Shown here piece after piece: positions 18,443-21,740 of a DNA stretch of 25,757 nucleotides. Source of the DNA: a virus. Made by a program: the position numbers and the translations under genes. The stretch spans positions 1 to 25,757 of IMG/VR virus record IMGVR_UViG_3300020215_000132; one strand, written 5' to 3'. The notes under the pieces were generated by a model. The model saw only the letters and a program-made list of their open reading frames with translations, was not told the DNA's origin and did not search any database. Numbering within the stretch: the stretch's first letter is position 1; the number at the start of each line of letters is the position of its first letter.

Positions 18443-18682
18443 ATGACCGAGCGCAGGAGGAAAACCAAACCTTGGAAAGTTGTAGCGTATTTGCCTTGTC
18501 CAAATTGCTCCTATTGGTCTTTAGGCGTTATGGCGAATGGCCGATTTGTTAGACACTCTGTTTCATTTGGTTCTGTAGAGCGACCACAGGGAAAAGGATT
18601 ATGGAAGAATCCTACGCCTATTTGCAAGGGATCAGGGAAGAAAGCACCGCTTCCGACCGAGCGCAGGAGGGGGAAGGGATGA
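18443..18682 (+). CDS. 79-residue basic zinc-knuckle-like protein with TERRR at both ends
   Basis: The ATG at 18443 is part of a 16-bp repeat (18445-18460), and the protein opens MTERRRKTKPW. A CPNC pair and one later Cys lie in a beta-like core. The C-terminus reads PLPTERRRGKG because the same repeat recurs in frame at 18655-18670. The second copy acts as the ribosome site of the next gene, which starts inside this gene's stop codon. Function unknown. Confidence 0.6.
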   Translation: MTERRRKTKPWKVVAYLPCPNCSYWSLGVMANGRFVRHSVSFGSVERPQGKGLWKNPTPICKGSGKKAPLPTERRRGKG

Positions 18683-18951: not shown

Positions 18952-19164
18952 ACGCTGGACACCGGAGGGAAGATGGATTTGTTTAAAGACTTGTTTGTTT
19001 TAGACCTTCCAGAATGGCTTGGGAAGCATCGCCAATGCGCCCAGGACGAGCATAGGACGCTTAAAAGCTCAGTCTCCGGTCCACCGTATGTCAAAATCCA
19101 AGGAACGCATTGTAAGCGGTTTAATGAGATTTATATTCACTCGGAGAGCCATGATCGAGCGTAG
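18938..19164 (+). repeat. Repeated gene-junction sequence (ATGA-YCGA-CGTAG type)
   Basis: ATGACCGACCGTAGACGCTG (18938-18957) and ATGATCGAGCGTAGGCGCTG (19151-19170) are near copies. In each, the preceding gene ends at the TAG while ATG opens MTDRRRW or MIERRRW. Related copies without the whole unit occur at 18445, 18655 and 18826. The first unit opens only a 21-codon frame (to 19003), which may be a relic. Confidence 0.7.
18973..19164 (+). CDS. 63-residue protein, unknown function
   Basis: GGAGGGAAG precedes ATG 18973. The product opens with a hydrophobic-acidic segment (MDLFKDLFVLDLPEWLGKHR) and continues polar with one Cys in each half. It ends in the second junction repeat, overlapping the HTH gene by 14 bases. 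No family recognised. Confidence 0.55.
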   Translation: MDLFKDLFVLDLPEWLGKHRQCAQDEHRTLKSSVSGPPYVKIQGTHCKRFNEIYIHSESHDRA

Positions 19165-19318
19165 GCGCTGGACCCGTCAGCAGCGAATGGTGTTGGCCGG
19201 CAAAGTTCTCATCTTACGCGCCAATGGCTACAAGCTGGAGGTTATTGCCTTAAAGCTCGCGGTAAATCCTTCCGTGGTATGTCGCATTTTATCGAAGTAT
19301 GGCCGAACCCGACTATAA
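19151..19318 (+). CDS. 55-residue HTH protein, last gene of the early operon
   Basis: GGAG lies four bases before ATG 19151. After MIERRRWTRQQ comes a helix-turn-helix of the resolvase/sigma-like type (KVLILRANGYKLEVIALKLA then VNPSVVCRILSKYG). It could be a late-gene regulator, since it is encoded directly before the promoter and RNA locus preceding the packaging genes. That role is inferred from position. Confidence 0.65.
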   Translation: MIERRRWTRQQRMVLAGKVLILRANGYKLEVIALKLAVNPSVVCRILSKYGRTRL

Positions 19319-19373: not shown

Positions 19374-19382
19374 TGATATACT
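19374..19382 (+). promoter_or_regulatory. Extended -10 promoter of the small-RNA locus
   Basis: TG-A-TATACT (19374-19382) is a near-perfect extended -10 element; no -35 hexamer is evident. The start of transcription would fall at about 19389-19390, exactly where the 11-bp closing stem of the RNA begins. Confidence 0.6.
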
Positions 19383-19389
19383 GGTAATT

Positions 19390-19506
19390 GGGTATGAGAG
19401 ACTACGCGAAAGCGAGGTCTTTCTGCCCATTTTTTTTGTCATCGCGTTGATTCACCTCTCATACCCCAACCCCGCCCCCGAAAGGGACGCGGGGTCGTTT
19501 TCTTTC
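19390..19506 (+). ncRNA. Candidate ~117-nt small RNA upstream of the terminase genes
   Basis: The predicted transcript begins with GGGTATGAGAG (19390-19400), which pairs perfectly with CTCTCATACCC (19456-19466). Inside is a CGC-GAAA-GCG hairpin (19405-19414) with a GNRA tetraloop, flanked by AC/GT pairs. ACGCGA (19404-19409) can instead pair with TCGCGT (19442-19447), giving a mutually exclusive fold. A terminator follows three bases after the closing stem. No ORF with a ribosome site fits. No known RNA family recognised. Confidence 0.6.
19470..19505 (+). terminator. Rho-independent terminator of the small-RNA locus
   Basis: CCCCGC (19470-19475) pairs with GCGGGG (19489-19494), continued by CCC/GGG around a GAAA loop, then TCGTTTTCTTT. 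It also separates the early operon from the packaging genes. Confidence 0.85.
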
Positions 19507-19578: not shown

Positions 19579-19842
19579 ATGACCATTGCCGACGTCCGCA
19601 ACCTCTTCCGGGATTTTGAAAACAAGGGCATGGCCCCCACCCTCCTGCACATGGAAGAACGGGACGGGCAGGTCGAGCGGTTCGTCATCGCCAACGACCA
19701 GAAGACCCTTATGCGACATCCGAAGAGCTTCCGCCCCAGGTTCCCCAAGCATCGCCTGTCCTCTTTCCAGGAAAACGTTTATAACCCCATGTGCGTGTTC
19801 CATAGCAAAAAAGCGACGCAGTACGAAGGGTTGATCGTATGA
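19579..19842 (+). CDS. 87-residue protein before the terminase, unknown function
   Basis: ATG 19579 has no clear Shine-Dalgarno. The frame is rich in C- and G-ending codons, more so than its neighbours, which supports coding on plus but also suggests a different origin. The product (MTIADVRNLFRDFENKGMAP, RDGQVERFVIANDQKTLMRH) is mixed alpha/beta and ends KATQYEGLIV. A 93-codon frame on minus overlaps it and cannot be wholly excluded. It may be a small late protein. Confidence 0.5.
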   Translation: MTIADVRNLFRDFENKGMAPTLLHMEERDGQVERFVIANDQKTLMRHPKSFRPRFPKHRLSSFQENVYNPMCVFHSKKATQYEGLIV

Positions 19843-19929
19843 CTGATTTACGCGGGCGCGTGCGCGTGTATATTAAGTTACTTCTACCCCCCTGTAACAA
19901 GTACTTATTAATCCGTGCGGTGTCTTCCC

Positions 19930-20394
19930 GTGGCTGAACTTTCCCCGAAACAGAGGCGATTTGTGGCCGAATATCTCAAAGATCAAAACGCCACTCAGGC
20001 GGCTATCCGGTCTGGATACTCGAAAAAGACCGCTGATGTTCAAGGGCCTAGGTTGTTGGGAAATGTTCGGATTAAGGCGGCTGTGGAAGCGGCTTTGGGG
20101 GACGCCGCAAAGAAGGCCGGCGTTTCCGTGGAATATGTCCTCAGCAATCTGAAAGAAGTCGTTGAACGCTGTATGCAGCGGTCCCCAGTGATGATTCGGC
20201 AAGGCAAAGATATTGTCCAGAAGGTTGACGATCAGGGCAGGAGCGTCTGGGAATTCGATTCCATGGGGGCCAATAAGGCCTTGGAAAACATTGGTAAGCA
20301 CTTGAAGATGTTTACCGAAAAGCACGAACACACCGGCAAGGATGGCGGACCTGTCACGGTCAATATCGTGAGCTTTTCGGAGATGAAAAAATGA
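19930..20394 (+). CDS. terS: Terminase small subunit
   Basis: 154 residues from GTG 19930 (GTG 19915 would add five); no clear ribosome site for either. The N-terminus ELSPKQRRFVAEYLKDQNAT, QAAIRSGYSKKTADVQGPRL, LGNVRIKAAVEAAL is the classic Terminase_2 HTH pattern that recognises packaging DNA. A central helical oligomerisation region and a basic, polar C-terminus follow. It should bind the pac site and assemble with the large subunit encoded next, with which it overlaps by four bases. Confidence 0.93.
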   Translation: MAELSPKQRRFVAEYLKDQNATQAAIRSGYSKKTADVQGPRLLGNVRIKAAVEAALGDAAKKAGVSVEYVLSNLKEVVERCMQRSPVMIRQGKDIVQKVDDQGRSVWEFDSMGANKALENIGKHLKMFTEKHEHTGKDGGPVTVNIVSFSEMKK

Positions 20395-21740
20395 CCGAGA
20401 TCACCATTCCTTACCACTTCACGCCGCGCCCCTATCAACTCCCTCTATTGGCCGCCATGGACAGCGGCTATAAACGCGCCGTGCAGGTCTGGCACCGCCG
20501 TAGCGGGAAAGAAAAGACGGACATAGCCGGGATTGTCGCCAAGAAGATGCTGGAGCGGGTCGGTTCGTATTACTACGTCTTCCCAGAACTAAATCAGGGC
20601 CGCAAGGTGATCTGGGATGGGGCGGATAAGGACGGCTTTCGCTTCATTGACCATTTTCCGAAAGAACTTTTGGACGGGAAGCCCAACGATACGGAGATGA
20701 AGCTTCGGTATCGGAACGGGTCGCTTTTCCAGGTGGTGGGATCTGACCGCTTTGATTCTGTGATGGGAACGAACCCTATCGGTATGGTCCTTTCGGAATA
20801 CTCCCTTCAAGATCCTGCTTGCTGGGGTTACTTCCGGCCGATCTTGGCCGAGAACGGTGGATGGGCTGTGTTCAACTTCACTCCCCGTGGCGAGAACCAT
20901 GCCTATGCGCTTTGGGAACTGGCTAAGGCCGACACCAAGAACTGGTTTACATCCCTCCTGACGGTTGATGACACCGGGGCCATTCCCCGCGAGGTCTTGG
21001 AGCAGGAAAGGGCCGAAATCATGCGTCTTTACGGTAACGATGCTCTCTTTCTCCAGGAATATTACTGCTCATTCACGGTTCCCATCGCGGGGGCTTATTA
21101 CGCCGACCATATCTCAAAGGCTTACCGGGACGGGCGTGTGGGTCATGTCCCCCATGACCCACGTATCACAGTAGACACGGCTTGGGATCTTGGAATCAAT
21201 GACCGAATGGCTATCTGGTTTACTCAGTCCATTGGTCAAGAGGTTCGGGCCATTGATTACCTGGAAGGGACTGGCCAAGGTTTGCCCTATTACATCGCCA
21301 AGCTTAAAGAAAAACCTTACGTTTATGGTCGTCACGTCGCCCCCCATGACATTGAAGTGCGTGAACTCAGCAACGGCAAGAGCCGGCGGGATACGGCGGC
21401 TTCACTCGGGATTAATTTTGAATTGGCTCCCAGGCTACCCGTGGTTGACGGAATTGATGCTGTTCGCGCCATTTTCCCAAGAATGTGGTTCGACGCGGAG
21501 AAGTGTAAGGATGGATTGAATGCCTTGAAGAATTACCGGAAACAGTATGACGAGAAGCGAAAGACCTACCTAAATCAACCGTATCACGATTGGTCCAGCA
21601 ATGGGGCGGACGCTTTCCGAATGTTGGCGACCTCTTTGGATTTCCGGCAACGAAGCGTTCCGGCGCAGCAACCCGACAAATACGCCCGCGCCTTCGAGCG
21701 GCGGCAACAATCTGGAAGTCCTATGGCGGTGTTCGGATGA
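20391..21740 (+). CDS. terL: Terminase large subunit
   Basis: 449 residues, ATG overlapping the terS stop. The ATPase domain (about 20-230) has a variant Walker A, WHRRSGKEKT (34-43), a Walker B-like VLSEYS (133-138) in which the usual first acidic residue is Ser before E136, and a coupling motif NFTPRG. The RNase H-like nuclease (about 255-415) shows TAWDLG (D266), PHDIEV (D320) and HDWSSNGADAFR (D400, D407). It powers headful packaging and cuts DNA. The SEYS form and P22-type neighbours suggest a P22-like branch. Confidence 0.95.
   Translation: MTEITIPYHFTPRPYQLPLLAAMDSGYKRAVQVWHRRSGKEKTDIAGIVAKKMLERVGSYYYVFPELNQGRKVIWDGADKDGFRFIDHFPKELLDGKPNDTEMKLRYRNGSLFQVVGSDRFDSVMGTNPIGMVLSEYSLQDPACWGYFRPILAENGGWAVFNFTPRGENHAYALWELAKADTKNWFTSLLTVDDTGAIPREVLEQERAEIMRLYGNDALFLQEYYCSFTVPIAGAYYADHISKAYRDGRVGHVPHDPRITVDTAWDLGINDRMAIWFTQSIGQEVRAIDYLEGTGQGLPYYIAKLKEKPYVYGRHVAPHDIEVRELSNGKSRRDTAASLGINFELAPRLPVVDGIDAVRAIFPRMWFDAEKCKDGLNALKNYRKQYDEKRKTYLNQPYHDWSSNGADAFRMLATSLDFRQRSVPAQQPDKYARAFERRQQSGSPMAVFG

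Follow-up and report, generated by a model that had tools for sequence, protein, structure and literature searches.

A putative terminator-bearing leader RNA ahead of the packaging genes in a group of uncultured phages

In phage lambda, the late genes follow the promoter pR', a short untranslated leader specifying 6S RNA, and the intrinsic terminator tR', and a short RNA is made from this promoter unless the polymerase has become termination-resistant. The mechanism of antitermination by lambda Q is summarised in PMC9371919. A comparable role is played in Pseudomonas aeruginosa by AlpA, which lets the polymerase pass a terminator immediately upstream of alpB (PMC7969949, PMC9371919), and the gene transfer agent (GTA) cluster of Caulobacter is under GafY/GafZ control, with GafZ antiterminating at the cluster (PMC11150451). 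Two structured phage RNAs are also relevant: the put RNA of HK022, about 70 nt long (PMC9378689), and cabRNA, a structured RNA from the terminase region of staphylococcal phages that triggers CBASS (PMC10686824). Among open-licence papers, no description of a leader of the kind presented below upstream of the terminase small subunit gene (terS) was found.

The locus analysed here belongs to a 25.8-kb linear IMG/VR virus record, the whole of which (25,757 nucleotides) is referred to as the window. A 117-nt unit at 19390-19506, placed between a small helix-turn-helix (HTH)-like ORF and the packaging genes, had been described in an earlier note as an autonomous small-RNA gene, and was compared with packaging RNAs and regulatory RNAs on account of its position.

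The 117-nt unit and its surroundings

The main features of the window, and the corresponding leaders found in related phages, are listed in Table 1.

Table 1. Features of the window and leaders of related loci
Feature	Locus	Positions	Strand	Remarks
HTH-like ORF, 55 aa	Window	19151..19318	+	Directly upstream of the unit; weak Pfam HTH_23 match, E 0.0014, under the curated cut-off
Extended -10 promoter-like box, TGA-TATACT, TGATATACT	Window	19374..19382	+	Family motif TANACT; no recognisable -35
Arm A, 5' arm of the closing stem, GGGTATGAGAG	Window	19390..19400	+	Predicted transcript start 19390; shuffles; covariation
Early hairpin, arm A with 19415-19428, GNRA loop	Window	19390..19428	+	About 40 nt; dG -24.1; z about -6.6
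T8 run (terminator-like T1)	Window	19430..19437	+	U-rich stretch at the same place in four relatives
TCGCGT	Window	19442..19447	+	Pairs with ACGCGA 19404-19409 in the closed fold; prefix folding
Arm C, 3' arm of the closing stem, CTCTCATACCC	Window	19456..19466	+	Shuffles; covariation
T2, second terminator-like hairpin and T-rich tail	Window	19469..19506	+	dG -18.4; terminators at the same place in L004, L005, L006, L013
ORF, 87 aa, first past the leader	Window	19579..19842	+	No Pfam or PHROGs match
Terminase small subunit (terS)	Window	19930..20394	+	PHROG 51, E 1e-37
Terminase large subunit (terL)	Window	20391..21740	+	PHROG 2; relatives found
Portal gene	Window	from 22014		
Leader	L004	3552-3668		Closing stem of 10 pairs, reached in 3/3000 shuffles
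Leader	L005	3548-3659		Closing stem of 10 pairs, reached in 6/3000 shuffles
Leader	L006	3302-3396		Closing stem of 11 pairs, reached in 0/3000 shuffles
Leader	L013	35-138		Closing stem of 14 pairs with one mismatch; 88/3000 shuffles, a count that scores only its uninterrupted 7 pairs

The extended -10 box claimed in the earlier note is present and is separated by 7 nt from the predicted start; a sigma-70 scan of the window did not flag it because it has no -35. All other elements of that description were recovered as well. Arms A and C form the 11 perfect pairs reported, and when the 79-nt core was dinucleotide-shuffled 3000 times, a stem of this length never arose. The GAAA (GNRA) hairpin, within CGC-GAAA-GCG, and the alternative pairing of ACGCGA with TCGCGT both exist, and the 3' arm is followed by a terminator-like element consisting of a hairpin proper (19469-19495) and CGTTTTCTTTC. 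The unit as a whole has the expected length of 117 nt and is predicted to be structured (dG -46.9, z -4.8 versus shuffles) and has the appearance of a transcribed element. Its sole short ORF (ATG at 19393, 18 codons, stop near 19449) lacks a Shine–Dalgarno sequence and is not conserved, in line with the view that the unit holds no convincing ORF. The statement that it belongs to no known RNA family also held: an Rfam search returned no family above the gathering threshold (phi29 packaging RNA, 6S, EAR, JUMPstart, and others), and only chance matches at E 10.

The earlier description did not include the early hairpin and its U8 stretch, which use the same arm A as the closing stem. This hairpin was matched in 0 of 1000 shuffles, and together with the T8 run it looks like an intrinsic terminator; the presence of this element and of T2 leads to the prediction of two short RNAs, of about 48 and 117 nt. 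In prefix folding, the early hairpin appears first and lasts up to the point where arm C is complete (nt 77); from there on the closed stem has a small advantage (-27.8 versus -25.8 kcal/mol).

Upstream of the unit, the 55-aa ORF is a possible candidate regulator. A 79-aa cysteine-containing ORF at 18443-18682 has a weak Anti-TRAP match (E 0.017), which is under the cut-off. Downstream, a search for relatives of the 87-aa ORF found none. At 19847-19874, upstream of terS, there is a weak match to a promoter that could drive terS independently in the window.

Related loci and covariation of the closing stem

Neither a DNA similarity search in phages nor an exact-pattern scan of IMG/VR revealed a related copy of the unit; therefore, relatives were gathered through terL, and the regions upstream of terS were then inspected. 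Four of them (L004, L005, L006, and L013) have a common order of elements, consisting of TANACT, a spacer of 4–10 nt, a closing stem enclosing an inner hairpin and a U-rich stretch, arm C, and a terminator starting 0–14 nt past arm C, with terS or the first gene of the packaging operon coming next. In the window as in the four relatives, the motif stands 4–10 nt ahead of the closing stem, and each predicted start lies no more than about 3 nt from the stem's first base, in line with the claim made for the window. TANACT occurs only once in the 1.1 kb upstream of terL in the window, L004, L005, and L006, always before the leader, and once, at the equivalent place, in L007 and L013, for which the stretch was shorter; it was also found ahead of the L011 leader. 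With 23 occurrences on both strands of the whole window, the motif is not rare.

The terL proteins of the five phages are 68–87% identical, and their leader sequences are nearly unrelated. Compensatory changes in the stem spanning 19390-19466 had been proposed as a check, and they were found: across the five loci, 98% of the cells in the closing-stem alignment are paired, and 8 of 10 pairs have changed on both sides. Double-change cells number 19 against 5.8 in shuffles, an excess of about three times, in an alignment that leans to structure, its rows having been hand-aligned on the outer stem end. Between the closest pair, L004 and L005, there are four compensated pair differences and no broken ones. 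The early hairpin is distributed less evenly, with z values of -5.3 in L013, -3.2 in L006, and a marginal -2.4 in L005, and it is absent in L004; the near-balanced switch is therefore firm in the window and L013 only.

On the terL tree, the five leader carriers do not form one clade and are spread across a clade of close relatives, which indicates that the element was lost or gained more than once. Promoters followed by plain terminators, with no long closing stem, precede terS in L009, L010, L011, and L014, and no terminator was found at the equivalent place in L002, L012, and L015, so the clade does not require a gate. A descriptor combining stem and terminator, applied to both strands of 1.65 Mb of loci with 397 terminators, yielded 11 matches; TANACT stands in front of only four, which are the leaders of the four relatives, and the remaining seven, most of them weak, are at other places. 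The window's own terminator, being bulged, falls outside this stricter descriptor. L276 636-740 fits the combination of stem and terminator but was rejected as the terminator of convergent genes without a promoter. Among isolated phages whose terL is about 37–47% identical, inspection by eye of seven loci revealed no such leader upstream of terS, and a prophage scan of bacterial genomes provided three distant loci only and no clue to the host.

Several other observations were made in these loci. Genes for small cysteine-containing, zinc-ribbon-like proteins lie directly upstream of the promoter–terminator leaders of L009 (2072-2242) and L010 (116-271), a place occupied in the window, L004, and L005 by small HTH-like proteins, among which only those of L004 and L005 resemble each other. 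Upstream of terL in L032 is a perfect 18-bp inverted repeat (1118-1230, 112-nt span) with no terminator after it, and the terL frame of L033 (4001-5233) has 21 in-frame stops under translation table 11, a possible case of stop-codon recoding in a phage.

A probable operon leader and alternative readings

The distances to the downstream genes are informative about the role of the unit. In L006 and L013, the T-tract is followed at 0 nt by the next start codon; in L004 and L005, the distance is about 20–35 nt. Where the T-tract abuts the ATG, there is no space for another promoter. In L007, a TANACT box (TACACT, 536-560) is located 6 nt upstream of the terS ATG with no leader between them, which points to the box as the promoter of the packaging operon. 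The terS mRNA of L007 is predicted to be leaderless or almost so. Given the abutting start codons and the L007 box, the unit is best read as an operon leader, and we lean towards a 5' leader that lies next to the promoter of the packaging (late) operon and gates its genes through built-in terminators. The sequences themselves show the box, the stems and the terminator-like hairpins, as well as the conservation and covariation of these elements, and in some members the stem–terminator cassette appears to sit between the operon promoter and the gene. In the window, with 73 nt between T2 and the first following ORF and a weak promoter match before terS, gating is something we infer.

Transcription of such a leader could proceed as follows. 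The polymerase would start at about 19390, and the first 40 nt or so would fold into the hairpin followed by U8, pausing or stopping many polymerases and giving an RNA of about 48 nt. Behind polymerases getting past this point, arm C would displace the early hairpin to form the closed 11-bp stem; the polymerase would next meet T2, where the RNA of about 117 nt would end. The packaging genes would be expressed on read-through, which may depend on an antitermination factor or a modified polymerase made earlier in infection, along the lines of lambda pR'-tR', of AlpA at the alpB promoter, or of GafZ at the GTA promoter, so that short terminated RNAs would be the default and the full packaging mRNA would appear upon read-through. 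Terminator function, the regulation of the gate, and its agent are all what we infer here. No antiterminator gene was identified, and a -10-like pause element, the mark of Q and AlpA loading, was not found in the first 21 nt of the five loci, except for a weak one in L013.

A coupled leader peptide was considered, given ORFs ending at the start of the next gene in L004, L005, L006, L009, and L013, and dropped, since the L004/L005 spacing is not in multiples of three and the ORF in the window stops early. In L013 (52-140), AGGAGG precedes an ATG that opens a 26-codon ORF whose TGA overlaps the ATG of the next gene; this ORF is possibly a coupled leader peptide in L013 alone.

If the unit is the autonomous gene of the earlier note, its 117-nt RNA would work in trans, through base pairing or through a protein (for example Hfq) attached to the U-rich loop. 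In favour of this are the predicted promoter and terminator, a stable closed fold that ties up both ends, the U-rich single-stranded stretch, and, in the window, the 73 nt and possible second promoter before the next genes. We regard it as unlikely, since the five loci have no conserved loop or seed sequence, in two relatives the terminator extends up to the start codon of the following gene, and L007 uses the same promoter box without the RNA. Doubtful as well, and slightly less probable than a trans-acting RNA, is a novel class of leader RNA that would control the packaging operon in cis. Here arm A would first build the early terminator-like hairpin and then be captured by arm C, and this switch would itself decide passage of T2 without a protein antiterminator.

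A little less credible again is a cis-acting antitermination RNA like HK022 put, whose closed stem and inner hairpins would ride the polymerase past the adjoining and later terminators. The core of 56–79 nt immediately downstream of the start is about the size of put (about 70 nt, PMC9378689), structure is kept and sequence is not, and the closed stem is finished just before T2 is synthesised; however, the fold differs from the two simple stem-loops of put, conserved loop residues are absent whereas put has essential ones, and there is no significant similarity to the 6-kb HK022 stretch compared (26-32 kb, which may miss a put site). Terminators are common at borders between early and late regions, and the plain ones in L009, L010, and L014 would suit an unregulated, constitutive insulating pair with a weak promoter in front, the closing stem only stabilising the RNA ends. 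This reading we rank just below the put-like one, as an insulator has no need of a closing stem that covaries and begins at the predicted +1. A DNA-level packaging site (cos/pac) is very improbable, and so is a packaging RNA: the earlier comparison with packaging RNAs has position next to the terminase genes as its only link, phi29 packaging RNA and the rest of Rfam were not matched, promoter and terminators indicate transcription, and no DNA sequence is conserved among the relatives.

Under the operon-leader interpretation, what seemed an oddity of one metagenomic phage grows into a small family of comparable loci whose mechanism can be tested: in this uncultured group, a conserved RNA fold containing terminators seems to restrain expression of the packaging genes. 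Should read-through be governed by the refolding arm or by the fold itself, HK022 put would gain a companion among RNA-based antitermination elements; if a protein governs it, the adjacent small regulators would be candidate new antiterminators.

Comparison with known systems

Like cabRNA, the leader is a structured RNA of the terminase region without sequence conservation between phages, but cabRNA lies within the terS/terL coding sequence and is not a leader. Like put, it is a structured RNA leader that follows closely on a phage promoter; besides the other fold, it differs in having a terminator directly attached and in preceding a late operon, whereas that of put is early. The GafY/GafZ system resembles it in that a packaging/structural operon appears to lie behind terminators, with an antiterminator in the GTA case; unlike here, the GTA terminator, made up of 150-bp repeats, follows the first gene. 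In common with AlpA/alpBCDE, there is a terminator-like hairpin immediately upstream of the first gene and a small, possibly regulatory HTH-like protein, whereas no AlpA homologue, -35, binding element between -35 and -10, or conserved pause sequence is identifiable here. Finally, in contrast to lambda pR'-tR', the leaders are 95–117 nt long with a closing stem from +1, neither a -10-like pause element nor a Q homologue was seen, and the terminator adjoins the terS region instead of the lysis genes; the arrangement shared with lambda is that of a promoter, a short leader, and a terminator-like hairpin ahead of the first late gene.
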